Positions 9,318 to 42,496 of a DNA stretch of 46,398 nt are shown in pieces. The notes under the pieces are model-generated. The model made no database searches. It saw nothing but the letters and a program-made list of their open reading frames with translations, and was not told the origin of the DNA. Within the stretch, counting starts at the first letter, position 1, and each line of letters opens with the position of its first letter. This stretch comes from Paludibacteraceae bacterium. Its GTDB lineage: Bacteria > Bacteroidota > Bacteroidia > Bacteroidales > Paludibacteraceae. The DNA lies in assembly GCA_017417025.1 (NCBI GenBank), contig JAFPZY010000057.1, positions 1 through 46,398 of the forward strand, in the 5' to 3' direction. The position numbers were made by a program, and so were the translations under genes.

Positions 9318-9425
9318 AGCACACGCGCCTTGCGCGTTGGTTATGTCTGGTCGCGGGGCATTGGGTTGCCCTCCGGTCACAAAATAGCAAAACAAACAAC
9401 ATGTTTAACTAAAATCATTGATTTT

Positions 9426-12400
9426 ATGAAACACTTAAAAAATCTTTTATCGCAGCCCTCTGCCGGCAAGGCATCTGCTGCGGTTGTCGGTCAGCCGTCG
9501 GCTCACCGTCGGTATTCAAGGCTTAAACACCTTGCTCTGATGCTCTGCTTCCTCCTCGGCAGTCTGAATGTGTGGGGTGCGGATGTTATCGTCACTCTTG
9601 ACAACATCGGTACGTCGCTTACTTCAACAGCGAATACCACGGCTTCAACTGCCGATATCATTGCCACCGGCACGGAGGACGAGTACACATTGAATTATTA
9701 TCAATGTAAAAAGCAAGGAAGTGCAATGTTTATGACTAAGTCTGTCAACCCTTACATTTCCAATAAAACGCCTATGCCGGGAAATATAAAATCTGTTGAG
9801 GTGTTTATCAACAGCGGAGCATCAGGCAAAACCACTTATAACTGTGCATTTAGTGCGACTGAATGCAATGCCGCTAATGCAGCCACAGGTGTTGGTGCAG
9901 TGAAAATTACAGGTGGTAATAGTAACACTTTTGAGGCAGATGTTGAGGGAAAGTATTTTCTCATAACATTAGGTAATGCCAACAATGGTCAGGTGCTGAA
10001 ATTAGTCATCACTTGTGATGGCGAAAGTGGTAGCGGTCAAACGGGCGATTCTGATGTTCCGGTTACAGGAGTTACATTGGATGGAAGTTCAATCACTTTG
10101 ACGGTAGATGAAACACAGACATTGGAGGCAACAGTTACCCCTGATGACGCAACCAACAAGAATGTCGCTTGGGAGTCGAGCGATGAGGCTGTGGCAACTG
10201 TTTCAAATGCAGGTCTGGTAACAGCAGTTGGTGCAGGTGATGCAACCATTACCTGTAAATCCGTTGCGGATGATACTAAGTTCGCCACTTGTGCAGTACA
10301 CGTAAATGCTTCTCCGTATACAAAATCTACTTTGATTTTCACTGCTGCTTGCGGTGGTTCCGGGACGGCAAGTGATGGTGCAGAATGGATAGTGACATCG
10401 GATGGATCCGAATCCAGTTTTGACAATGCAAAAGGAATTCACTATGGTACCGGCAGTGGCGCAGTTCAGTATATCCAACTTGCAACAAGTGATATAGAGG
10501 GAACAATTGCAAAAGTAGTAGTAAACGCAAGTACTGCATCTGGTGTTTCTGCAACTGCATCTGTTACGATAGGTGGTGACGCCTTTGGAGGTGATGCTCA
10601 ATCTCTTACAGGCACGGCGGCTGAATATACATTCACGGGTTCTGCTTCCGGTAAGATTATCGTATTGGTAACGAAACCAAGTAGTGCAACTAAAGCTATT
10701 TATGTTAAATCAATAGTTGTATATTATATTGCTGCACCTTCAAAGACTCCGGCAGGCTTGGCATATGCCGATGCGGATTTGAGTAAATTGGTGAAATTGG
10801 GTGCAAGTTTTACCGCTCCGACTTTGGATAATCCGAATAGTTTGAGTGTTGCATATACAAGTAGCAATACCGATGTAGCAGAAGTTGCAGCAAATGGAGC
10901 TGTTACTATCAAGGCTGTGGGCGTTGCAGAGATTACTGCATCGTCGGAAGAGACAGAGACATACAAAGCAGGCTCGGCTAAATATAAAATCTATGTAGTA
11001 GCTCATGAAGGTACAGAGGCTGATCCTTATACCGTTGCAGATGCACGCGTAGTTATTGACAAAGGCGAGACAGGAATTGCAGACCAATACGTAAAAGGAA
11101 TCGTTAGTAAGATTGTAACTGCTTACAATTCAGAATACGGAAATATAACTTATGAGATTTCTGATGACGGAACTACCGAGGCTGCACAATTGCGTGCTTT
11201 CAGAGGATTCGACAAGGATGGAGCGTGGTTTACTTCCGAGGATGATGTAATGGTAGGTGACGAGGTTGTTGTTAAGGGGCAGTTTGCGATATATGGGACT
11301 ATCTACGAGCTCGATGCCAACAACCAGCTCGTTTCTCTCAATCGCACCAAAACAGTAGCCGGTCTTGAATATGCAGAAACGGCAATTGAGAAGAATATCG
11401 GTGATGCTGCATTTACTAATACCTTAACCAACCCGAATAGTTTGGAGGTTTCCTACAGCAGTACAGCTACGGATGTTGCAACGGTTGATGAAAATGGAGA
11501 AGTAACAATCGTTGGTATGGGTACAACTACCATCAAAGCAACTTTTGCAGGAAACGCTTCCTATTTGGCAGATGAGGTTTCTTACACTTTGACTGTTAAT
11601 GATCCTTCGTTAGTTAAAGTGACGTTCGACGCGACGGTAGATATTGCTTCCGACAATGCAGAGGGAATCACCAAAAACGGAGTTAATATCAAAGCTTCTC
11701 ACGTAGATGGAGTTAATGGATCAAACAATCCTATTAACTATTATCAATGTTTCAAGAATGAGACATTTACTGCAACTTGCACTTTAGGAGACATCAAACG
11801 TATAGAGTTCTCATGCACATCTTCCAATCCCGCAAGTGGATTTGGTGCAAGTTATGCAGATGGTGTCTGGACAGGCAGTGCTGCAGTTATAGAGCTAAAG
11901 GCTACAGAGAAGCAGGTACAAATGAATACTGTAACCGTTTATTACAAGGTAGATGCACGCGCTGAGGCTGGTTTGGCTTATGAGACGACAGCCATTGATA
12001 AGCACGTAGGCGATGCAGCATTTGTAAACACACTGACCAACCCGAATAACTTGGCGGTTGCTTATGAAAGTAGCAATACCGATGTAGCAGAAGTTGCCAA
12101 TGATGGAACTGTAACCATCAAGGCAGAAGGCACAGCAACGATTACTGCTTCTTTTGAAGGCAATGAAGATTACAAACCCGCAAGCGTTTATTATACTCTG
12201 ACTATAAATGAGGCAGGTTTGGATAATGTGACTTTCGATGCTACGAGTGATTACACAGCAGATGCAAGCACATTGACTTTGTCTAAAGGTGGATTTACAC
12301 TAACATTCACTAGCGGAGTAATGAATAATCAATCTGAATATCGCTTGTATCAAGGTCAGACTATGACTTTGTCTTCGAGTGATTATATAATCAAGAAGAT

Positions 12401-14258
12401 TGAGTTTGTTTGCTCCTCCGGCAACCCGATAACCGGTTTTGATGACGAAACCGGTTTGGATAAAACAAATAACCGCTGGACAGGCAAAGCGAACAAGGTA
12501 GAACTGACTGCTTCAAACAAGCAAGTTCGTATAGAGCAAATGATTGTTTACTACGTTGAGGATACCCGTGCCGCTTCTGGTTTGGCTTGGAGCACTGATG
12601 AAGTAGAAATCACGCTTGGTGATGCATTTACTCCTGCAAATCTCGTTAACCCGAATAGCATTGACGCAAGTGCAATCACTATCGCAAGTGACAATACCGA
12701 TTTGGCAGTTGTTAATGATGGCGTTGTTTCGCTTGAGGCAGATGCAACAGGCACGGCTCATATTACCGCTACCTTTGCAGGGAATGACGACTATAAACCT
12801 GCAACTGCGTCTTACACAATCATCGTGAACGATCCTACTCCGACCATTTATGTTGACAAACTGAATGTTAACTTCACCTCTGTCAAAGTAGGTAATGAAG
12901 TACCTGCTGCTCAAACTATTAGCGTAACTCTCACCAACGTGGCTGCTGTAACCGCAACTCTTGGTGGTGACAATGCTGACGCATTCGGTATTTCTACTGA
13001 ATCATTGACAGAAAGTGGTGATATTACTATCTCGGTTCTTGCAAATACCGATGCCGCTGCTTCGTATTCAGCAACGCTGACCATCAGCGATGGCGAGGAA
13101 GGTGCAGCAGACAAGACGGTTAACCTGTCCTTCGAAGTTGTTGTTGAAGACGATGTAACCGGTACTTGGACACTTGTTACCGACGCAACAACTCTTGCAG
13201 CAGGTAAGAAAGTAATCATCGCTCAATACGTTGAAGCTGATGGTGCTATCAATACTATGGCCGCTCAAAAGAACAATAACCGAGGTGTCATTGCAAGTAC
13301 TGTTGCTGGTACAACCCTGACTCCGGCTGATGGTACTAAGGTAATGACACTGGCTGATGCTGGCGAAGGCAAGTTCTATCTGATGACTTCGGATGGCGAG
13401 TATCTCTACAATGCTTCTACAAGTGGTACTAGTTATTTGAGAACTAAAGAAGAGGCTGATGACGCTTCTTGGACGATTGCAGCAAATGCACAAGGTAAGG
13501 CTACTATTACTTCTGTAGAGAACACGAACCGTACCATCATGCGTTACAATGAGAATGGTTCTAACCCGGCTCTCTTCAACTGCTATGCATCTGGTCAAAG
13601 CGACATCGCTCTGTATATGCTTGAAGAAACAACTCCCGAACCTGTTTATGAGAATATTCGTGAAGGGGCCGTTGCCGGCAAGTACTATACTATCTGCTTG
13701 TCAAAGAAAGTGGTTGCTTTCCGTGGCGGTAGTTTCTGGACATTGAACAAACGTAGCGCAAGCGTTGCATATCTTGAGGAAGTTACCGGCGTACTGCCTG
13801 CAGGTACTCCGTATATCTTCAGTGTAAGTGATAATAAACTTGAAGTAGTTTACGAGGGTGAAGCAACTTCTACAGCTCAGGCAAATGGTGCACTCCGTGG
13901 TACATTTGCAGATTTGGTTCAAGAGGAGATTGATGGCATAGGTCAAACAGAACAATCTGACATCTATCTGTTGTCCAACAATACACTTTGGAACGTTACC
14001 GCTACTGGATCTTCCAACAACAAGATACTTGCAGGACGTGCATACATCGTCTTCAAAGATCTCCATGAAGTGACAGAAGCTCCGCAGTCTGTTCCCGGCC
14101 GCCGCGTGGTTGCAATGCCAATGCACAAGGATAACACTACCGGCATTGACGCTGTGAACATGAATGTAGAAGGCGTACAGAAAGTGGTGGTTGACGGACA
14201 CATGTACATCGTGCGCGACGGCAAGATGTTCGACGCAACCGGCAGACTGGTAAAATGA
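9426..14258 (+). CDS. Large modular surface adhesin with bacterial Ig-like repeats
   Basis: 1610 residues. The start is MKHLKNLLSQ at 9426; upstream in-frame codons are unlike a signal peptide. The extended signal peptide ends near SLNVWGA (about residue 53). Approximate modules are: a beta domain to 205; a Big_2 Ig-like domain at 211-294 (VTGVTLDGSSITLTVDE); a jelly-roll-like domain at 295-435; Ig-like repeats beginning near 441, 644, 846 and 1049, each with AGL(A/E)Y or SGLAW and later NPNSL/NPNNL; an OB-fold-like DUF6359 type domain at 528-640; VTFDA domains at 730 and 932; a beta domain with TISDGEEG near 1138-1243; a lectin-like region at 1244-1402; and a final domain with the tail VVVDGHMYIVRDGKMFD. 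It is predicted to be surface-exposed and to bind host or glycan ligands (inferred). Base composition is clearly more AT-rich than its neighbours. The inverted-repeat segment lies just upstream. Confidence 0.88.
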   Translation: MKHLKNLLSQPSAGKASAAVVGQPSAHRRYSRLKHLALMLCFLLGSLNVWGADVIVTLDNIGTSLTSTANTTASTADIIATGTEDEYTLNYYQCKKQGSAMFMTKSVNPYISNKTPMPGNIKSVEVFINSGASGKTTYNCAFSATECNAANAATGVGAVKITGGNSNTFEADVEGKYFLITLGNANNGQVLKLVITCDGESGSGQTGDSDVPVTGVTLDGSSITLTVDETQTLEATVTPDDATNKNVAWESSDEAVATVSNAGLVTAVGAGDATITCKSVADDTKFATCAVHVNASPYTKSTLIFTAACGGSGTASDGAEWIVTSDGSESSFDNAKGIHYGTGSGAVQYIQLATSDIEGTIAKVVVNASTASGVSATASVTIGGDAFGGDAQSLTGTAAEYTFTGSASGKIIVLVTKPSSATKAIYVKSIVVYYIAAPSKTPAGLAYADADLSKLVKLGASFTAPTLDNPNSLSVAYTSSNTDVAEVAANGAVTIKAVGVAEITASSEETETYKAGSAKYKIYVVAHEGTEADPYTVADARVVIDKGETGIADQYVKGIVSKIVTAYNSEYGNITYEISDDGTTEAAQLRAFRGFDKDGAWFTSEDDVMVGDEVVVKGQFAIYGTIYELDANNQLVSLNRTKTVAGLEYAETAIEKNIGDAAFTNTLTNPNSLEVSYSSTATDVATVDENGEVTIVGMGTTTIKATFAGNASYLADEVSYTLTVNDPSLVKVTFDATVDIASDNAEGITKNGVNIKASHVDGVNGSNNPINYYQCFKNETFTATCTLGDIKRIEFSCTSSNPASGFGASYADGVWTGSAAVIELKATEKQVQMNTVTVYYKVDARAEAGLAYETTAIDKHVGDAAFVNTLTNPNNLAVAYESSNTDVAEVANDGTVTIKAEGTATITASFEGNEDYKPASVYYTLTINEAGLDNVTFDATSDYTADASTLTLSKGGFTLTFTSGVMNNQSEYRLYQGQTMTLSSSDYIIKKIEFVCSSGNPITGFDDETGLDKTNNRWTGKANKVELTASNKQVRIEQMIVYYVEDTRAASGLAWSTDEVEITLGDAFTPANLVNPNSIDASAITIASDNTDLAVVNDGVVSLEADATGTAHITATFAGNDDYKPATASYTIIVNDPTPTIYVDKLNVNFTSVKVGNEVPAAQTISVTLTNVAAVTATLGGDNADAFGISTESLTESGDITISVLANTDAAASYSATLTISDGEEGAADKTVNLSFEVVVEDDVTGTWTLVTDATTLAAGKKVIIAQYVEADGAINTMAAQKNNNRGVIASTVAGTTLTPADGTKVMTLADAGEGKFYLMTSDGEYLYNASTSGTSYLRTKEEADDASWTIAANAQGKATITSVENTNRTIMRYNENGSNPALFNCYASGQSDIALYMLEETTPEPVYENIREGAVAGKYYTICLSKKVVAFRGGSFWTLNKRSASVAYLEEVTGVLPAGTPYIFSVSDNKLEVVYEGEATSTAQANGALRGTFADLVQEEIDGIGQTEQSDIYLLSNNTLWNVTATGSSNNKILAGRAYIVFKDLHEVTEAPQSVPGRRVVAMPMHKDNTTGIDAVNMNVEGVQKVVVDGHMYIVRDGKMFDATGRLVK

Positions 14259-33001: not shown

Positions 33002-33892
33002 ATGATAATAAAAAAGATGAAAAGAACCGGTTTGGTTATTGTATTGGTGGCGCTTGGCGCAGTAATGGCAGTAGCGCAGGAAGAGCACAGGACGGACGGT
33101 GCCACTCCGCCGGCAGCGCAGGAAGACCACATAGTGGACGGCCTGACATCGGTTGCCGCCGTAGCGGGCGAAACCAAAGATGCCGGAGTGACGAATGACA
33201 CTGCCGCCGCATTGCAGCTGAAGGAGGTGCCGGTCTGGAAAAAGAAACTCTATTACGGCTATAACTTCGACATCTATTATCACAACGACTCCCGCCCGCA
33301 GCGCAAGGAGAACGGCTGGTCGATAAACGTGACACCCGAAATAGGATGGCGGCTGAAAGAGCGTGTGTATCTGGGCCTGCGCTTCGGCGGAGGCTATCAG
33401 GACACATATACCACCTACACATACGCGGGCATAAACGGAGAGGACTCTCAGGACAACCTGCGCATAAAGCAGGGCTCGTGGGAAGTGGCTCCCTATGTGC
33501 GCTACAGGATGAAGACTATATTCAACGGAAAAGTGGGCATCTGGCTTGAGACGCACCTTTACACGGGGATGGAGTTCCCGCGTGTGAGCGAAGGTATAGT
33601 GAAAGGGACTGACTATAACGGCCTGCGCCACAGCATAATATACGGTGCACAGGTCTCTCCCGTGATAACCTATCAGTTCAACCGCAAGAGCACGTTCCAG
33701 ATGTTCTTCTCTATACTGAGTCTTGGTTACAGCGGCACCACGTTCTGCTATACCGACCCGCTGACCGACAAGCGCTACAACGAGTACACCAACGATGTCA
33801 TCATCTTCTCTGGCAAGCTTCGTAACCTGATAGCAAACCAGTTCACTCCTGGCCTTTACGGTCTTAAATTCGGCATACAAAAGAGCTTTTAA
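33002..33892 (+). CDS. Small outer-membrane beta-barrel protein, unknown family
   Basis: 296 residues. A signal peptide (TGLVIVLVALGAVMAVAQ) is followed by a low-complexity, acidic linker (about residues 25-75). A barrel-like part follows, rich in aromatic alternation (YYGYNFDIYYHND, VYLGLRFGGGYQ) and ending in a terminal strand, LYGLKFGIQKSF, whose final Phe fits BAM-recognised barrels. A second possible start is at 33017 (MKRTG). The stop codon is directly followed by the GTG start of the TamB-Omp85 gene. This tight coupling suggests a shared role in envelope assembly, but the family is not recognised beyond the porin-like appearance. Confidence 0.75.
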   Translation: MIIKKMKRTGLVIVLVALGAVMAVAQEEHRTDGATPPAAQEDHIVDGLTSVAAVAGETKDAGVTNDTAAALQLKEVPVWKKKLYYGYNFDIYYHNDSRPQRKENGWSINVTPEIGWRLKERVYLGLRFGGGYQDTYTTYTYAGINGEDSQDNLRIKQGSWEVAPYVRYRMKTIFNGKVGIWLETHLYTGMEFPRVSEGIVKGTDYNGLRHSIIYGAQVSPVITYQFNRKSTFQMFFSILSLGYSGTTFCYTDPLTDKRYNEYTNDVIIFSGKLRNLIANQFTPGLYGLKFGIQKSF

Positions 33893-36800
33893 GTGAAGAA
33901 AAAGAGCCTGTGGTGGAAAGTCCCTGTCGCTGTGGCAGGCGTATTGGCGGGGTTGTTGCTGCTTGTTATGGCTGCGGCGGCATGCGTTGTCTGTGTGCCC
34001 GGCTTGCGCACTGCCGTGCTTGAGAAAGGCGTGGCTCTCGCCAATGAGAAAACTGACTGGGACATTGACTTGGGGCGGCTTTACTTGTCGCCTTTCCACA
34101 GGCCTCCTGCGGAGCTTTACCGCGCATGGAAAGGCAGGGCTGACCTGCCTTTGGAGGTGGAGATTGACAGCCTGTTCGTCGGGCACAGGGGGAAAGACAC
34201 TCTGGTTTGCGTTCAGGCATTGCGTCTTCGCGCCAAAGCGCATACATCGGCTGGGACGGACGACCTGCTTGCAGTGCCTGTAGAGGTTGAGCGCCTGTTC
34301 TTGGGCAGGACAGCCTTCCACTCTGACAGCCTGATAGCCGCAGTGGGGGTGGATGTGGACCTGGACAGCCTGCATGTAACCAGTCCCGGACTGCTGATAG
34401 GCAAAGGCTATTACCCTCTGCACGGCCTGCGCATCGACGGCCCGTCGGTGGGGATAGACCTGCGCGCGACTCCGCCTGACACCGCTGCTCACGAAGAGCC
34501 CTCTCCGCTCCTGCTTGCCTTCGATGTGCCTGACGGACTGCTGCGCGACGTGGACTTCAGACTTACGCCAATCGGCCTGGGGCTGCAGGTGCGCTCGCTT
34601 GCCACTGGCAGCTTGGTGGACGTGGGTAACAATTTATATGACACGCGCAGAATAGACATCGGGGGGCTGAGGCTGGCTATAGGCGGCCTGAATCTGCCTT
34701 TTGATACTGTTTACGGGAATGCCCGTGTAGATTTGGCACGCAGCCTTATCACCAGCAGCGGACTGCACGCCCGCTCTGACGGGATAGGGGCGGAAGCGGA
34801 TGTGTCTGCCACGGCTCTTAATCTGGAAACAATGCGCGTGGATGTGACGGCGGATGCCGGATTCCGCGGCAGCAAGGCGCAGTTGCGCGGCTACTACGAC
34901 ATCGACGACGAGGCATACAACATGTCCGTGGCGGTGGAGCGTGTGGACCTCAGTCCCTTCCTGCCGGACAGCCCCTATGTGGTGGTGGCCGGCACCGTCA
35001 ACACCGAAGGGCAGGGCATAGACCCCCGGTCGGCGGCTATGAAGAGCAGGGTGGGGATTCAGTTGGACGAGTGCATATACGACAATATCAATGCCTCCGG
35101 CCTCGCTCTCGATGCCGAACTGGCGGACAAGACTGTGAACGGCACACTGCACCTGCCCTTTGCCATGTGCAGCACCGGACTGCAGCTGAAAGCGCAGACA
35201 GAGCACCGCTTCCGCGTGAAAGAGTTCCTCACGCCGGAGCGGATAGAGGTGGATTACCACAGCAATATGCGCAATGTGCGCGCCCGCATAGGGGACAACG
35301 AACTGACTGCCGGCAGACTGGATATTGACTTCTCCACTGGCAGCGCCACCTCGCTCGGTATTGCAAGCAAGGGTCTGGCTGTGGATGTGGAAAGCCCGAT
35401 GCACGTGCTCCGTGTCGTGGAAAAAATGCAGCGGCTGTCGTCTTTCGGGGCGCGGCTGCCTGCTCCCGCCGATATGCTTTCGCACCTTGCACTGCTTGAC
35501 ACTCTCCGCCGTCTTGTTCCTGAGATGAAGGCGGAGGTCAGCGTTGCCAATGGCAGTCCGGTGCAGCCGCTGATAGAGGGTGCAGGCCTTGACATCGACA
35601 AACTGCACCTCCTGCTGGCCTCTGACTCGCGGAAGACTGCTTTGGCTGTGGACGCATCCATGCCTGACATCAGCCACCCCGAAGACAGCAGTGCCCTCAG
35701 GCTGCCTCCCGCCAAAGCCGCGCTGAAGGTCGATATGGAGGAGGGGACGACCAAAGCCTCGGTTATTGCAGGCACGCACCTTACAGACGGTGTGATGAGC
35801 TTCTACGGACTTTGCGCGGACGCTGCCCTCCGCATGGAACTGGAGCGCAAAAAGGACACTCTCCGCGGAAACGGCCGCTTGGCGTTGGACAGCATCTCCT
35901 ATGGCGGCATGGAGCTGGGCAACAGGGCGATAGACATCGACTTGTCACCATCGCAGGCCTACCCCAATGCCCTCCGTGCGGATGTGAGGGCGGACGAGAT
36001 TCCGCTGGACATTGTGGAAGGCATTGTGCAACTGACTGACATTGCCCTTCACGGAGCCGTCAGAGCGACTGCCTCGGTGGACGGACTGCCCCAAAAACCG
36101 GACATCTCCGCCGAAGTACTGCCTGTGGGCGTTTCGGCGGAATACAAGCCTTACGAGGTGGGGATAAGTCTGGGGGAGACACCTGTCGTGATGCAGCATA
36201 ACCATGTGGACCTCAACGGCTTGCCTGTCTATGGCGCGGACAGCACCTTCGTGTCTCTCAACGGAGGCCTTGACCTTGACAGCATGCGGCTTGACGTAGT
36301 GCTGGCGGCCGACAGCTTTGCTCCTGTGAAGCTGAAAAAAGGCGGTCCTCTTCCCGTGTACGGAGAACTTGCAACCGACATCCGGGGCACAGTGACCGGT
36401 CCGCTTGACAGCATAGTGGCTGACGTGGATGTTACCGTGCTGCCCACAACCGACATCACTTACCCCATCGACAAGAAGAACCTCGCGCAAGTCAAGCCCT
36501 ACGGCACTGTGAACGTGCGCTACGGCGTGGCGGACGGGGCGCTCGACCTCGGGGGGCAGATCAATGTGGATGAGGGTATGGTGCGCTATTCGCCAAAGCT
36601 CTATCCTGTGATGCCTTTCCGCGTTGATTCGGGGAGCCGCGTGGCTTTTCAGGGACCGATAGGGCGGACGCTGCTTGATGTGTCAGCCTCGCAGAAAGTG
36701 AAAGCCGATGTGGAGTCTGAAGGGGAAGAGACACGGCGTGTGGATTTCCGGACAGGGGTAAGAGTAAACGGCGAAATAGACTCTATAGGACTGAACACTA

Positions 36801-38686
36801 TAGGCTTCTTCCTCGAAGCGCCCGACGATGAAACCATAACTCGCGAACTGGCTTCTCTGGACGAGGACACGCGCGACGGACTGGCGGCAACCCTGCTGGC
36901 GACAGGCATGTATGCGGGCGAAAGCAACGTGGCGGCAAAGCGCGAAGGCTATGTGCTCTCCTCTATCATTAACAGCCGTATCAATGCAGCGATGGCCAAC
37001 TCCAAGATAGGCAAGTTCATGGACGTGGATATAAGCAGCGGGCAAAGTTCGCATGCCTCCGGAAAAACCAACGACATGAACATAGCCATAAGCAAGTCGT
37101 TCTTCCGCGACAGACTGCGCGTCACTGTGGGCTCCACCATATCCGACAACCCCGATGTGAACAAAGCCAACGGCCTGCTGTCGAGCCTCACTGCCGATTA
37201 CAAACTGACCAAAGAAGGGAACATCCTGCTGAGGCTCTTCTCGCAGCGCGACTACAACAACATCCTCGAGGGCGAACTCTTTAAGTCGGGCCTCGGGGTG
37301 CGCGCGCAGAAAGAATGGCGGCACAGGGAACTGTTCCGTGCTGACAGCATAACGCGCGTCTATGGACTGACGGCGGATGCAGGCGTGGCCTACCGCTCTA
37401 ACAACAGCATCGGACCTGACATTACGCTCAAATCGACCATAAAGAACCTGCTCGGCAACGGCGAACTGTTCACGCTGAAGGGCAACGGCGCTTACTACTG
37501 GGCGCTGCGCAACCGTCACCCTGGCGACCCGAAGAAGACCGACACCTACAAGCTGGGGCTCAACGCCTCGCTTGTCTTCCCCTACCTGCACTGGACAGGC
37601 AGCAACAACCCTGCCGGCGACACGCGCTACATGCTCGGATACCAATACGAGAATATAGCCGGTGGCTACGGGGTGCACAAGCTGTCTGGCTCTTTCACCT
37701 ATTTTATCCGCTCGCCCTTCAACTCGTATATAACTCATGCCTTTACACCATTCTCCCTCTCTGTCGTGCTTATGAAAGCCGAGTCGGACGACCTGCTTGA
37801 CAAGGCGGCGGAGTATCCGCAGCTGATAAAGATAATTGCCGGCAACGAGTTTGTCCCCTCCATAGGCTACAACTTCATCTACAACGACTACCGCTCCAGG
37901 CGTGCTGTGAATACCATGCTCGACCTCGGCTTCAAGGAGTCTGGCAACCTCATCAATGCTCTGTACTGCCTGTTCGGCTACAAGTGGGACGACCCCGACA
38001 AGCCTCTCGGGAAAATCACCTTCAACCAGTTTGTCAAGCTCTCCGTCGAGTTGCGCAACAAGTTCAATATCACAGACCGTGTCAGCATAGCTACGCGCCT
38101 CTTTGCCGGAACCAACATCCCGCTCGGCAATTCCTATTTTGCACCGCTCTCCGAGGCTTTCTATGCCGGAGGTCCCAACAGCCTGCGTGCATCTTCGCCA
38201 TACGCCTACGGACCTGGCAACTTCTACTCCGCCAAGTACAACCAGAACTTCTTCCATGCCGGCGATGTAAGGCTTGAGGGCAACTTCGAACTGCGTTTCC
38301 CCATAGTCTGGAAACTCTTCGGGGCGGCTTTCCTCGACGCGGGCAATGTATGGAACTGGTACTCTACCGTTGACCTGTACAAGGCGGGGGGCTACGAGGA
38401 TTACCTCACGCAGCTGGAGATTCCGGAAAACCTCAACGACGGCATCTTCAACAATCCCGACTTCGCGCGGCAGATTGCCCTCGGCACTGGTGCCGGACTG
38501 AGGCTGGATATCGACGGGCTTGTCATACGCCTCGACCTCGGCGTGGGCATACATGTGCCGTACCAGACCTTCAAGTACGACAAGAACGGCAAACCCGACA
38601 CTACACAACCAATCAACAACTACTTCAACATACCCTCTGCACTTGATGCCTTGCGTCTCAACTTCGGCATAGGATATCCTTTCTAA
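33893..38686 (+). CDS. TamB protein with a fused C-terminal Omp85/TamA-type barrel
   Basis: 1597 residues in one open frame. An N-terminal membrane anchor (VPVAVAGVLAGLLLLVMAAAA) is followed by a long AsmA/TamB-like beta region. The DUF490 part is near 811-1150, including LDLGGQINVDEGMVRYSPKLYP and RLRVTVGSTIS; TamB proteins normally end here. In this protein a barrel of about 440 residues continues (about 1156-1597). It contains FYAGGPNSLRA, GDVRLEGNFELRFPI and AAFLDAGNVWN, and ends in FGIGYPF. Those are the final-strand motifs of BamA/TamA/TamL barrels. POTRA domains are not seen. TamB and TamA normally are separate proteins bridging inner and outer membranes; here one polypeptide would span both. 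The start is GTG, directly after the upstream stop. Confidence 0.85.
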   Translation: MKKKSLWWKVPVAVAGVLAGLLLLVMAAAACVVCVPGLRTAVLEKGVALANEKTDWDIDLGRLYLSPFHRPPAELYRAWKGRADLPLEVEIDSLFVGHRGKDTLVCVQALRLRAKAHTSAGTDDLLAVPVEVERLFLGRTAFHSDSLIAAVGVDVDLDSLHVTSPGLLIGKGYYPLHGLRIDGPSVGIDLRATPPDTAAHEEPSPLLLAFDVPDGLLRDVDFRLTPIGLGLQVRSLATGSLVDVGNNLYDTRRIDIGGLRLAIGGLNLPFDTVYGNARVDLARSLITSSGLHARSDGIGAEADVSATALNLETMRVDVTADAGFRGSKAQLRGYYDIDDEAYNMSVAVERVDLSPFLPDSPYVVVAGTVNTEGQGIDPRSAAMKSRVGIQLDECIYDNINASGLALDAELADKTVNGTLHLPFAMCSTGLQLKAQTEHRFRVKEFLTPERIEVDYHSNMRNVRARIGDNELTAGRLDIDFSTGSATSLGIASKGLAVDVESPMHVLRVVEKMQRLSSFGARLPAPADMLSHLALLDTLRRLVPEMKAEVSVANGSPVQPLIEGAGLDIDKLHLLLASDSRKTALAVDASMPDISHPEDSSALRLPPAKAALKVDMEEGTTKASVIAGTHLTDGVMSFYGLCADAALRMELERKKDTLRGNGRLALDSISYGGMELGNRAIDIDLSPSQAYPNALRADVRADEIPLDIVEGIVQLTDIALHGAVRATASVDGLPQKPDISAEVLPVGVSAEYKPYEVGISLGETPVVMQHNHVDLNGLPVYGADSTFVSLNGGLDLDSMRLDVVLAADSFAPVKLKKGGPLPVYGELATDIRGTVTGPLDSIVADVDVTVLPTTDITYPIDKKNLAQVKPYGTVNVRYGVADGALDLGGQINVDEGMVRYSPKLYPVMPFRVDSGSRVAFQGPIGRTLLDVSASQKVKADVESEGEETRRVDFRTGVRVNGEIDSIGLNTIGFFLEAPDDETITRELASLDEDTRDGLAATLLATGMYAGESNVAAKREGYVLSSIINSRINAAMANSKIGKFMDVDISSGQSSHASGKTNDMNIAISKSFFRDRLRVTVGSTISDNPDVNKANGLLSSLTADYKLTKEGNILLRLFSQRDYNNILEGELFKSGLGVRAQKEWRHRELFRADSITRVYGLTADAGVAYRSNNSIGPDITLKSTIKNLLGNGELFTLKGNGAYYWALRNRHPGDPKKTDTYKLGLNASLVFPYLHWTGSNNPAGDTRYMLGYQYENIAGGYGVHKLSGSFTYFIRSPFNSYITHAFTPFSLSVVLMKAESDDLLDKAAEYPQLIKIIAGNEFVPSIGYNFIYNDYRSRRAVNTMLDLGFKESGNLINALYCLFGYKWDDPDKPLGKITFNQFVKLSVELRNKFNITDRVSIATRLFAGTNIPLGNSYFAPLSEAFYAGGPNSLRASSPYAYGPGNFYSAKYNQNFFHAGDVRLEGNFELRFPIVWKLFGAAFLDAGNVWNWYSTVDLYKAGGYEDYLTQLEIPENLNDGIFNNPDFARQIALGTGAGLRLDIDGLVIRLDLGVGIHVPYQTFKYDKNGKPDTTQPINNYFNIPSALDALRLNFGIGYPF

Positions 38687-38706: not shown

Positions 38707-40077
38707 ATGGTTCACGATTTGTACATTCTGATGATTACCGCAGGCGTAGTCAGCCTGTTGTTCAAACTTCTTAAGCAGCCTGTTGTGCTTGGCTACATTG
38801 TGGCGGGTATATTGGTCGGCCCTCACCTCTTCGGCGAGAAACTTGTCGATATGGAAAACGTTGAGACATGGGGGAATATCGGCGTGCTGTTTGTGCTGTT
38901 CTGCATTGGCCTTGAGTTCCGCCTCAAGAACCTCTTCGAGAGCGGCAAGGTGGCGCTTGTCGGGGCTGCAACCATCATTGTAGGTATGCTCCTGCTCGGC
39001 TACGGGGTGGGGCGTTTTGCGTTGCTTGACAATATGAACTCGCTTTTCCTTGCAGCCATGCTCTGCATGTCAAGCACTACCATAGTGATGAAGGCTGTCG
39101 ATGAAGCAGGTCTGGGCAAGGCGCGCTTTGTCAAAGGGGCCACCGGCATTCTTATTTTCGAGGACATAGTGGCTGTCGTGCTTCTGGTGTTGCTGTCCAG
39201 TATTGCCGTCAAGAACAGTTTCGAGGGCGGTGAACTGTTGGAAAAAGTAGGAGTGCTTGCCATTACGCTTGCCGTGTGGTTTGTTGTCGGTATTCTTATT
39301 ATCCCCACTTTCCTGCGTTGGGTGCGTCCGTATCTCAACGACGAGATTCTCATCATTCTTGCTCTCGGCCTGTGCCTGGGTATGGTGCTCACGGCTGAAG
39401 AAGCCGGATTCAGCAGTGCCCTCGGTGCATTCGTCATGGGTATGATTCTTGCCGAGACTAAAGAGTCGCACCGCATAGAGCATCTCATGGAGCCGCTCAA
39501 GAACGTGTTTGCCGCCATCTTCTTCGTCTCCGTCGGCATGATGATCAACCCTGCATCGCTGGCCGCTTATTGGCCCTCAATACTGTTTGTCTCCGTTGTG
39601 ATTATTGTGGGCATGATTGTCTTCGGCACTCTGGGCTGCTGGTGGGGCGGCGAGACGCTCCGCGACGCGATGCAGACGGGCTTTTCGTTTGTGCAGATTG
39701 GAGAGTTCTCGTTTATTATAGCCGCTTTGGGCAGCAAATTGGGGGTCACCGATCCTGCCATTTATCCTATTATCGTTGCCGCCTCCGTGCTGACCACTTT
39801 CCTTACACCATATATAATGAAGGCTACGGGGCCTTGTTATAATTTCCTTTACAACCACGCCTCTCCCCGTTTGCGCGCCATGATAGACAGCCGCGAGCAG
39901 CAGGTGCAGAAGGCTGAACAGGAGGCTTCGGTTGCCGCAGACAACAACAATATTTCTTCTGCGGACAAAGTGCGTCACGCAGTGCGTCGCACCGTAGTTA
40001 CCAGGCGGCTCGTTGACCTTTTCTTCCGTAACATGAGTGAGAACGACGCTTCTGCCGAAGAATCGTCCAAACAGTAA
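38707..40077 (+). CDS. Cation:proton antiporter, CPA2/KefB type, no RCK domain
   Basis: 456 residues. About 12 membrane segments include LKQPVVLGYIVAGILVGPHLFG (the first repeat), IGVLFVLFCIGLEF, and GFSSALGAFVMGMILAET, all typical of the CPA2 Na+/H+ or K+/H+ exchangers. KefB-type relatives in Bacteroidetes often carry C-terminal nucleotide-binding RCK/TrkA domains. Here the transport domain is followed only by a charged 75-residue tail (REQQVQKAEQEASVAADNNN). It probably exchanges Na+ or K+ for protons across the inner membrane. It follows the TamB-Omp85 gene after 20 bases. Confidence 0.9.
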   Translation: MVHDLYILMITAGVVSLLFKLLKQPVVLGYIVAGILVGPHLFGEKLVDMENVETWGNIGVLFVLFCIGLEFRLKNLFESGKVALVGAATIIVGMLLLGYGVGRFALLDNMNSLFLAAMLCMSSTTIVMKAVDEAGLGKARFVKGATGILIFEDIVAVVLLVLLSSIAVKNSFEGGELLEKVGVLAITLAVWFVVGILIIPTFLRWVRPYLNDEILIILALGLCLGMVLTAEEAGFSSALGAFVMGMILAETKESHRIEHLMEPLKNVFAAIFFVSVGMMINPASLAAYWPSILFVSVVIIVGMIVFGTLGCWWGGETLRDAMQTGFSFVQIGEFSFIIAALGSKLGVTDPAIYPIIVAASVLTTFLTPYIMKATGPCYNFLYNHASPRLRAMIDSREQQVQKAEQEASVAADNNNISSADKVRHAVRRTVVTRRLVDLFFRNMSENDASAEESSKQ

Positions 40078-40093
40078 AGCGGAATATCCCGCC

Positions 40094-40148
40094 GACGACC
40101 GAGAGACGACCGAGAGACGACCGAGAGATGAGCGAGAGATGAATGAGA
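40094..40148. repeat. 11-bp tandem repeat, 5 copies, running into a start codon
   Basis: GACGACCGAGA at 40094, 40105 and 40116, then GATGAGCGAGA at 40127 and GATGAATGAGA at 40138. The last unit supplies the ATG at 40139 of the following gene. Its frame is open through the array because the units have no stop. Confidence 0.9.
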
Positions 40149-41041
40149 GGAAAAATATACCAATTCCGACCGCTTGCAACGAGATTGACCTTGCTGCCTG
40201 GACAAAGGTTGGCGAGGGCGGGAACGGAGCCGTATATACCAACGGAAACGAACCTGGTGTAATACTCAAACTGAGTTTCCAGGAAAGCGGTACCCTGCCC
40301 GCCGTAGCCAAAGAATTTTACACTTCCAAAGCAGTCTATGACCTCGGTGTGCCTACCCCGCAAATGATTGATATTGTGCGTGTCGGCAGCAATTACGGCA
40401 TTAAGAGCAGGCTTGTCGGCAATAAGAAATCGCTGGCACGCATCTGCGGGGAGGACCCGCCCCGGATAAAGGAAATGGCGGCTGTAATGGCAGAGCTGGG
40501 CAAACGGCTGCACAGCACTGAAGTCATGACTCTGGACATGGCAGGCGGAGGCGAATGGCTCCCGTCAATGAAGGCACTGATGCTGCAGGCACTGGCTTCC
40601 ACCAATATGCTCGGCGGAAAAAAACTGCAGGAGGTCACGGCGTTTGTCGGGTCGCTTGAAGACGCGCCTACGCTGCTTCACGGCGATTTCAACCTCGGCA
40701 ATCTCATCTTCTCCATGCCCGGAGAAACACCATACTGGATAGACCTCGGCCGCGCAGCGCATGGGCTGCCGATGTTCGACTTGGGGCATCTTTACCTCTT
40801 CTGCAACATCTTCTCTAAGAAAAAACGTGTGCAGGAGATTACGCACATGACCGAGGGGCAGATGCTCCGTTTCTGGTCGGCTTTCGCCCTCGCTTACAAC
40901 GGTGCCGGCGGGCTTGACCGTTTCACCGCGGAGTGCAGGCGTTTTGCTGCGCTTGATGTCCTCCTGCTCGGATACATACAGCCCCTTAGCCTGCTTGAGC
41001 GCATGGCTCTCGGCCTGATTGCAAAATCTATGTTCAGATAA
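40139..41041 (+). CDS. APH-like kinase, TIGR02172-type
   Basis: 300 residues from ATG 40139. The N-lobe has VGEGGNGAVYTNG (nucleotide loop) and GVILKLSF (Lys). The catalytic loop is HGDFNLGN from H181, and the metal site is WIDLGRAAHGLPMFDLG. These are the motifs of aminoglycoside/choline kinase-like phosphotransferases and suit the TIGR02172 group. The substrate is unknown; the fold occurs in resistance enzymes and in small-molecule kinases, and no resistance function is implied. The start lies in the last unit of an 11-bp array, so repeat number changes could affect translation. It is 6 bases before the ABC transporter gene. Confidence 0.85.
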   Translation: MNERKNIPIPTACNEIDLAAWTKVGEGGNGAVYTNGNEPGVILKLSFQESGTLPAVAKEFYTSKAVYDLGVPTPQMIDIVRVGSNYGIKSRLVGNKKSLARICGEDPPRIKEMAAVMAELGKRLHSTEVMTLDMAGGGEWLPSMKALMLQALASTNMLGGKKLQEVTAFVGSLEDAPTLLHGDFNLGNLIFSMPGETPYWIDLGRAAHGLPMFDLGHLYLFCNIFSKKKRVQEITHMTEGQMLRFWSAFALAYNGAGGLDRFTAECRRFAALDVLLLGYIQPLSLLERMALGLIAKSMFR

Positions 41042-41047
41042 ACGACC

Positions 41048-42496
41048 ATGAAACAAACTGTTGTTATCTTCCTCACTCTTCTGCTCCTCTCCTCTTGCGG
41101 AGACGGAAGAAAGCAGTTCCATGAGCCTCGCAGCGAAGCTGACTTGAGCGGACTGACCATTGCTACGAGCAACGGAACCTACTACCACGGCAAGTTCGAG
41201 AAGCGTACAGATGTGGGGCTTTATATTGCCAACACGGAGACGGATGCCCTGCAGGCGGTGCGCCAGGGGCTGGCTGATGTTTATGTCACCGACGAAATCA
41301 TCCTCTCGCAGGAAGAAATGGAGCGCTTGAACATCAAACTGGCGTTCCGTGGCAAGGAGACATTCAAGGTCGCTTTCGCCTTGAAGCAGGGTAACCGCCG
41401 CCTGCAGACGGAGCTCAACCGCTTTCTGGCAGAGGCCCCGATAGGGGACATTACATCCCATTGGATTGCCGGCACACCCGAAGTGCCCGAAAAGGAATAC
41501 CAGATTGCTCCCGATGCTCCCCCCCTGCGATGTGTATGTGCCATCAATATGGCTCCTGTCAGTTACATCTCCGCAGGCGGCGAATGGAAGGGCATGGAGC
41601 CTGATATACTCCGGCGGTTTGCTCACACCACAGGCAGGCGCTTTCAGATGGAGAACATGTCGCTCGCTGCTGCCGTGGCGGCACTGCAGGCGGGTAACTG
41701 CGATATAGTCTCTGCCTGCATCACACCCACCGAAGAGAGACAACTGTCAGTTGATTTCTCCGACCCCTACTACGAGGTGCACCCTGGCTATTTCGTCCCG
41801 AACACCGGCGGCAGGGCACATGCCAAAATCAACGAGCGCTTGCGGCGCAGCCTGCTCATCGAAAGACGATGGGAGATGATTCTGCACGGCCTGCTGGAGA
41901 CGGTGAAAATAACGCTCTTTTCTATCCTCTTGGGGTCTGTCCTCGGCGGATTTGTCTGCGCTGCCAAACGCAGCAGGCGCAGATGGCTGCGCGAACTGGT
42001 TGCGCTGTACGGGCTTTTCATCAGCGGCATTCCGGCGCTGGTGTTCCTGCTCATATTGTTTTATGTAGTGTTTGCCGGTACGGGGATGCCGCCGTCGGCT
42101 GTGGCTATTGTCACTTTTGCGCTGTGCTTTGCCTCCTCCTCTGGCAATATCTTCCATTCCGCCATATCTTCCGTACCCAGGGGGCAGATTGAGGCGGGGC
42201 TCAGTCTCGGTTTCACTCCGATGCAGACTTTCAACTTTGTCATACTGCCGCAGGCGCTCAAAAAAGGACTGCCTTTCTTCGCAGGCGAGTGTGTAGGGCT
42301 GCTCAAAAGCACATCCATCGTGGGGTATATCGCCATTCACGACCTCACACATGTCGGCGACCTTATACGCAGCCGCACTTTTGACGCCTTCATGCCGCTG
42401 TTTGTGGTCACGCTCATCTATTTTCTCCTTGCCTGGCTGATTCGCAAAGGGCTTGGAATGCTGCTCCCCGAAGCGCGCCGGAGAAAAAAAACATAG
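41048..42496 (+). CDS. ABC transporter fusion: solute-binding lipoprotein domain plus permease
   Basis: 482 residues. A lipobox (LLLLSSCG, Cys17) starts the protein. A short binding-protein fragment (LSGLTIATSNGTYYHGKF; QAVRQGLADVYVTDE) and a second binding domain (LRCVCAINMAPVSYIS; FQMENMSLAAAVAALQAGNCD; QLSVDFSDPYY) occupy 20-265. The permease part (about 280-475, five membrane segments) carries the ABC-permease EAA-type loop IEAGLSLGFTPMQTFNFVILPQALK. This is the polar-amino-acid importer organisation in one chain. The ATP-binding partner follows after 24 bases. The lipid anchor on a permease-linked protein is unusual, since the chain is already in the inner membrane. Substrate: a polar amino acid or glutamine-like compound (inferred). 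Confidence 0.9.
   Translation: MKQTVVIFLTLLLLSSCGDGRKQFHEPRSEADLSGLTIATSNGTYYHGKFEKRTDVGLYIANTETDALQAVRQGLADVYVTDEIILSQEEMERLNIKLAFRGKETFKVAFALKQGNRRLQTELNRFLAEAPIGDITSHWIAGTPEVPEKEYQIAPDAPPLRCVCAINMAPVSYISAGGEWKGMEPDILRRFAHTTGRRFQMENMSLAAAVAALQAGNCDIVSACITPTEERQLSVDFSDPYYEVHPGYFVPNTGGRAHAKINERLRRSLLIERRWEMILHGLLETVKITLFSILLGSVLGGFVCAAKRSRRRWLRELVALYGLFISGIPALVFLLILFYVVFAGTGMPPSAVAIVTFALCFASSSGNIFHSAISSVPRGQIEAGLSLGFTPMQTFNFVILPQALKKGLPFFAGECVGLLKSTSIVGYIAIHDLTHVGDLIRSRTFDAFMPLFVVTLIYFLLAWLIRKGLGMLLPEARRRKKT

Follow-up and report, generated by a model that had tools for sequence, protein, structure and literature searches.

A TamB2–TamL2 fusion in gut and rumen Bacteroidales that may bridge both membranes as one chain

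The closest described systems keep TamB and its Omp85 partner barrel as separate proteins, and two questions about them are in dispute. One is the main task of TAM, insertion of outer-membrane proteins or phospholipid transport; the other is whether the hybrid barrel of TamB in TamA represents a working state or a resting plug. As described in the available text of PMC12800296, cryo-EM of E. coli TamAB captured a hybrid state, in which TamA strand 1 is hydrogen-bonded to the last strand of TamB, alongside a non-hybrid state in a ratio of about 1:1; the hybrid contact is non-covalent and reversible. The disulfide pairs given there, 267–1258 and 269–1256, have a constant sum, from which we deduce an antiparallel register in which TamA strand 1 begins next to the C-terminal end of TamB. 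In the same account TamB strands 3–5 lie folded within the barrel and TamA strand 16 stays clear of TamB, which weakens a simple 22-strand picture. F. johnsoniae TamL and TamB were modelled by others as a hybrid barrel of 22 strands, in which TamB pairs with the last TamL strand (PMC12045153), so that the two papers, as far as their available text goes, differ on where the seam lies. A 2024 in vitro study proposed that force on the POTRA domains frees TamB from strand 1 and thereby admits substrates (PMC11341756).

We found no description of a TamB–Omp85 fusion in the open-licence literature searched. Neither ‘fused’ nor ‘fusion’ occurs in the main texts of PMC4494059, PMC12045153 and PMC13382580, and ‘fusion’ is absent from PMC12800296. 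Fusions of other outer-membrane pores are reported in PMC4827864, the available part of which includes no TamB–Omp85 example. Here we describe such a fusion in a 46,398-nucleotide stretch of DNA (the window; contig JAFPZY010000057.1 of assembly GCA_017417025.1, Paludibacteraceae). We conclude that the fusion is real, conserved and of single origin, and that it has turned a two-protein inter-membrane machine into one chain.

One frame from TamB2 into a TamL2 barrel

The original prediction, made from the letters of the window alone, was of an uninterrupted 1597-codon frame that begins as TamB and ends as an Omp85/TamA-type barrel. The frame (table 1) contains no internal stop. A phmmer search with the whole protein gave no match; family models do match its parts, and unfused gene pairs in related genomes correspond to its two halves, placing TamB and an Omp85/TamL barrel in one chain.

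We assign the first ~1150 residues to an accessory TamB of the ‘TamB2’ type. The DUF490 domain read into this half proved correct by descent and not as a direct match: Pfam TamB (PF04357)/DUF490 has no match in the window protein at E ≤ 0.1, whereas it matches all four unfused TamB2 frames scanned, strongly, and 3/25 fusion relatives scanned (best 6.4e-17). The TamB body aligned weakly to residues 1050–1129 of E. coli TamB in hhalign (E 0.004, probability 8.5%), and a PDB search with the TamB part yielded no match. Of a set of 580 stretches, 538 encode relatives, and the best 80 of the 538 were taken. A hydrophobic 19-mer near the N-terminus is present in all 80 of these fusions (best 80 of 538). 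The last TamB strand is presumed to cover residues ~1127–1142, with strand borders read from the residue pattern and weak covariation bands.

Residues 1155–1597 are assigned to a barrel of the TamL (‘TamL2’) type lacking both lipobox and POTRA domains. They align with positions 334–747 of the 747-position NCBIfam TamL model NF052279 (E 2.6e-89); the score of the window protein, 300.6 bits, stays below the whole-protein cut-off of 400 bits, as expected if the POTRA half is missing. The same model matches 25/25 fusion members scanned (best 1.4e-95), and Pfam Omp85 matches residues 1378–1595 of the window protein (E 1.4e-12) and 22/25 members at E ≤ 1. PDB profile matches of the barrel are BamA/TamA-type. 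The predicted Omp85/TamA type can be refined: the partner half is TamL2-type and not TamA. Homology to TamL/TamA suggests 16 strands. The predicted absence of POTRA domains was borne out by a profile of the POTRA region, which was built from one half of the TamL2 proteins and found 42/42 held-out TamL2 proteins and 0/80 fusions (best 80 of 538). An N-terminal lipoprotein signal is likewise absent from the fusion barrel, where TamB2 sequence precedes in the same frame.

Table 1. Features of the fusion locus (positions in the window; residues of the fusion protein).
Feature	Residues	Position	Strand	Basis
TamB2–TamL2 fusion gene	1–1597	33893..38686	+	1597 codons, GTG start
N-terminal hydrophobic segment, presumed uncleaved inner-membrane anchor	about 6–35	33908..33997	+	sequence
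Periplasmic TamB2/AsmA-like body, presumed beta-taco groove	about 36–1040	33998..37012	+	homology to TamB2 frames
Six presumed strands, TamB C-terminal ‘pseudosubstrate’ domain	1042–1142	37016..37318	+	alignment with TamB2 C-termini
Joint linker, 13 residues	1143–1155	37319..37357	+	joint alignment
TamL2-type Omp85 barrel, from barrel strand 1 to ...GIGYPF	about 1156–1597	37358..38683	+	NF052279, PDB profiles, tree
Loop-6 position, presumed ‘lid-lock’: R1432 kept, aromatic at 1434 lost	1432–1434	38186..38194	+	row counts
296-aa presumed small outer-membrane barrel protein, associated partner		33002..33892	+	conservation, weak Pfam matches, co-occurrence

At the joint, the alignment passes from the TamB2 end (ILEGExxxSGLGVxxxKxW) through a short linker to the TamL2 start of barrel, DAGVAYRSNNSIGPD. 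The linker is 10–25 residues long (median 13) in the 80 fusions (best 80 of 538). TamB and TamL had been expected to be separate proteins elsewhere, and in related genomes they are neighbours: at 86/96 unfused TamL2 loci a separate TamB2 frame immediately precedes TamL2 on the same strand, and at the other 10/96 TamB2 was undetected in the stretch taken. These pairs carry the TamB2/TamL2 label by gene arrangement and not by sequence comparison with F. johnsoniae. For 69 of these 86 pairs both a lipobox and a start codon could be assigned; among these 69, the frames overlap by 4 nt in 20, and the spacing falls between −23 and +112 nt in 65, leaving four outliers. Matches to TamB2 end at fusion residues 1135–1149, and those to TamL2 mostly start at 1152–1169 (extremes 1115, 1124 and 1184). 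Upstream of its matched part, TamL2 has about 350–500 residues of signal and POTRA sequence, with one case of 219.

A tree of 39 barrels (17 from fusions, 15 from TamL2 and seven from other TamL) places the fusions in one clade (100/100) on a long stem, nested within TamL2 (99/98), with the other TamL apart (100/100). The nesting rests on a rebuilt tree without E. coli TamA and one near-copy (L128), as in an earlier tree that included TamA the long fusion stem joined the TamA branch; the seven ‘canonical TamL’ are TamL-type genes assumed, with their surroundings unscanned, to be unpaired with TamB2. Descent from the other TamL was considered and rejected, given this clade and the K/RSNxxxGP start-of-barrel signature that the fusion shares with TamL2. 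The simplest history is a single deletion in a tamB2–tamL2 pair, after which the gene changed fast and was spread or lost in a patchy way. The deletion would have taken out the tamB2 stop codon and, with it, the part of tamL2 that encodes the lipoprotein signal and POTRA domains (about 350–500 codons), after which TamB2 would read directly into TamL2 barrel strand 1.

Working of the fused chain and its upstream neighbour

Several barrel residues differ between fused and unfused rows. At the loop-6 site that we take to be the ‘lid-lock’ motif, Arg1432 is kept in 100/101 distinct fused rows, while residue 1434 is F in 85/86 unfused rows and in one of the 101 fused rows; 95/101 fused rows have A, S, T or C there. 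E1202, conserved in TamL2 (84/86 unfused rows), is Y in 94/101 fused rows, and R1255 (85/86 unfused rows) is I in 100/101. Since the fusions share one origin, these changes count as one evolutionary event and not as many. We infer that they may reflect loss of a closed-lid state.

Covariation was computed on 187 distinct rows (effective number 96), comprising 101 fused (effective 32) and 86 unfused (effective 68). With all rows, the 12 strongest antiparallel bands link segments separated by at most 66 residues; many of these bands pair one presumed strand with the next, in the stretch from the first TamB strand to barrel strand 2. The top antiparallel band scores 5.41 against 5.24 for the top parallel control. 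In fused rows, the band between the last TamB strand and barrel strand 1 ranks first of 50,909 antiparallel TamB-by-barrel windows; in unfused pairs it ranks about 253rd of 45,848. Above a score of 4.0 the fused set has 32 antiparallel and 28 parallel windows, one of the parallel ones in the linker, and some non-neighbour strand pairs score like the band between the last TamB strand and strand 1. Because parallel controls score about as high, contact between these two strands in the fusion is hinted at by the covariation and no more.

We lean towards the view that the fusion is a one-chain TAM with the hybrid state held, most likely a standing channel for phospholipid or another hydrophobic cargo and not a cycling insertase. 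The hydrophobic N-terminal stretch and the C-terminal barrel suggest that the chain bridges both membranes: the N-terminal helix would sit in the inner membrane, the beta-taco body would cross the periplasm and the barrel would lie in the outer membrane. The fusion makes the last TamB strand and barrel strand 1 consecutive, with 10–25 linker residues between them; if the two strands remain paired, the hybrid state would be held and the chain could serve as a standing conduit. A standing bridge is favoured because the cycle of PMC11341756, as drawn in the available text of that study, is closed to a POTRA-less chain whose TamB part is tethered to strand 1. Several points count against it. Among the E. 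coli TamAB particles about half are non-hybrid, TamA strand 16 is free of TamB and further TamB strands are tucked into the barrel (PMC12800296), and the covariation signal does not stand clear of its parallel controls. When TamL, as distinct from TamL2, was depleted in F. johnsoniae, outer-membrane lipids were only slightly affected, and the authors reason against a lipid-transport role for TamL; deletion of tamB2 or tamL2 left growth unaffected (both in the available text of PMC12045153). The tethered strand might also come unpaired and let substrates in, or the chain might be cut after insertion.

A more specific version of the locked lipid bridge is one we put forward tentatively and think may well be wrong. 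Six TamB and sixteen TamL strands would make up a single continuous antiparallel sheet. The barrel, into which the TamB groove would feed, might then have 22 strands or be permanently open. The insertase cycle would have been given up, as suggested by the lack of POTRA domains, the loss of the lid-lock aromatic and the changes at conserved barrel residues.

Whichever reading holds, the fusion is a natural test of how TAM works, since strands that are paired in the E. coli complex are joined in these gut and rumen Bacteroidales: evolution has fixed the TamB strand beside barrel strand 1 and has removed the POTRA domains that were proposed to release it. If the fusion carries lipids, lipid transport needs neither POTRA domains nor hybrid release; if it still inserts proteins, models of strand-1 release need revising. 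A single chain with fixed stoichiometry is also an attractive structural target for the whole inner-to-outer-membrane bridge.

The presumed small barrel protein that had been described as preceding the fusion without a gap does so, its stop codon abutting the fusion start (TAAGTG). The 296-aa product has a presumed signal peptide, read from the sequence, and a conserved C-terminal domain of ~220 residues whose last residue is F. Pfam outer-membrane-barrel models match 8/22 members weakly (best 0.003), and a PDB search gave one chance-level match (E 1). Among the best 80 of 538 fusion loci, the gene lies directly upstream in 45, elsewhere in the locus in three, and is undetected in 32, of which three extend only a short way upstream. 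The suggestion of a dedicated partner gained support from 61 same-genus genomes, where the protein is found in 32/37 fusion carriers and 1/24 non-carriers (Fisher p 5e-11, a value too optimistic for related genomes taken with no phylogeny correction). It is confined to one genus of the 41 in the co-occurrence sample. Read-through from this gene into the fusion was rejected: the two share a frame in only 24/46 loci, so ordinary coupled translation suffices. The 296-aa protein could be a substrate or a subunit of the fusion.

If a substrate, it would fit an unlikely but serious alternative, in which the same fused architecture is still an insertase for outer-membrane proteins, perhaps one dedicated to this neighbour. 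The tethered TamB strand would swing off, the substrate would pair with barrel strand 1 and the tether would then reset. The adjacency and co-occurrence just described favour this, as do reports that E. coli TAM catalyses outer-membrane protein assembly in vitro (PMC11341756) and that TamA cross-links to its substrate Ag43 (PMC12800296), each as given in the available text. Against it stand the loss of the lid-lock aromatic and the missing POTRA domains, deletion of POTRA2 from E. coli TamA being lethal in the assay strain (PMC12800296, available text). Five of the 37 carriers also lack the 296-aa neighbour, in assemblies 68–97% complete, and 26 fusion loci (22 without the 296-aa protein and four further ones) have no common upstream gene.

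We give somewhat less weight still to the idea that the small protein is a subunit and not a substrate, such as one that closes or plugs the barrel or accepts lipid from it. That the genes abut and co-occur, within one genus of the 41, would suit a subunit; the protein is nonetheless not found beside part of the fusion loci. A subunit would be compatible with the standing bridge that we prefer.

Genomic setting, distribution and integrity

The window holds further genes of note. A CPA2-type cation/proton antiporter gene (38707–40077) adjoins the fusion, and a homologue occurs in 36 of the best 80 of 538 fusion loci, where it either precedes the small barrel gene or follows the fusion. Its frame is overlapped by that of an APH-fold kinase (40037–41041) near the TIGR02172 group (206 bits, below the cut-off of 228). 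At 41048–42496 one frame encodes an amino-acid-type solute-binding domain (residues 161–255) and an ABC permease domain (residues 298–462). A 1642-aa frame at 9330–14258, with four bacterial Ig-like (Big_2) stretches, probably encodes a large surface protein.

The genome of the window (2.18 Mb, 89% complete) encodes, besides the fusion, a separate TamB, a second TamL-type protein (757-aa frame) and a further Omp85 protein, presumed to be BamA. With another TamB and another TamL-type protein in the host, the fusion is an additional system. It is present in 37/61 same-genus genomes, including that of the window, and in 0/40 genomes from other families sampled in the same survey; it is missing from several near-complete genomes of the genus (G011, G014, G028, G041 and G051). 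Homologues with the same joint were sought across the family, and 119/358 genomes (hand count) in 4/33 genera match across it; the other 55 matching genomes are weak and, where places are listed, mostly reflect TamB2-type frames. An order-wide survey found the fusion in 5/393 genomes, including two other families (G573; G457 and G640), so that it occurs in three families. Among 395 genomes across the phylum only the window's own has the fusion, the other five matches being unfused TamB2-type frames. Carriers in the best 80 of 538 are Bacteroidales assemblies; Paludibacteraceae appears in many of their titles, and many come from rumen, reticulum, abomasum or faeces.

Breaks are absent from 78/80 loci (best 80 of 538). 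The two broken copies are interrupted near residue 240 (L111) and residue 1536 (L096), with the joint open in both, and a fusion fragment in genome G048 (C7) has two stops in its N-terminal part. Two genomes have two fusion joints each (G118, C18 and C22; G227, C15 and C1): the fusion has been duplicated or acquired twice in places.

It is very improbable that the fusion is a degenerate relic, a decaying POTRA-less copy of little function. The few broken copies, its absence from some near-complete same-genus genomes and the other TamB and TamL-type protein kept by the host would allow this, but barrel identity to the window protein has a median of 79% and a minimum of 65% over 79 loci (from the best 80 of 538), many columns are invariant, the frame is unbroken in nearly all of these loci and the fusion is present in three families.

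That an assembly or frame error joined two genes can be dismissed with near certainty: although carriers are draft assemblies, mostly from metagenomes, the joint, flagged at the outset as a possible frame error, is open in 80/80 loci from different records (best 80 of 538), full-length copies recur among same-genus genomes, and the POTRA-coding part is missing rather than out of frame.

Comparison with known systems

E. coli YdbH–YnbE and YhdP are AsmA-like lipid bridges that have no POTRA platform and no Omp85 barrel in the chain. Their job resembles the one proposed here for the fusion, whose chain differs by its Omp85 barrel.

Patatin-type Omp85 proteins of type Vd secretion likewise combine an Omp85 barrel and a large N-terminal domain in one chain; unlike the fusion, they carry patatin in place of TamB and keep a POTRA (PMC6604945, PMC8151025 and PMC11116518, in their available text). 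For Borrelia BamA–TamB, a model in which TamB strands complete the Omp85 barrel is similar to the fusion, although the two are separate proteins and five POTRA domains are present (PMC13382580, available text).

The fusion resembles E. coli TamAB in its presumed inner-membrane helix, presumed beta-taco body, six presumed C-terminal strands and Omp85 barrel; the last TamB strand, which pairs with strand 1 in the E. coli hybrid state, directly precedes barrel strand 1 in the sequence of the fusion. E. coli TamAB differs in having two chains, hybrid and non-hybrid states, and three POTRA domains that dock TamB (PMC12800296, available text). The nearest likeness is with F. johnsoniae TamB2–TamL2 (Fjoh_1899/Fjoh_1900), where the genes also stand in the order TamB then TamL, with overlapping frames, and are accessory to an essential TamB/TamL (PMC12045153, available text). 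That system consists of two proteins, with TamL2 a lipoprotein that has POTRA domains, in contrast to the single chain without lipobox or POTRA described here (PMC12045153, available text). Both halves of the fusion descend from pairs of this TamB2–TamL2 type.
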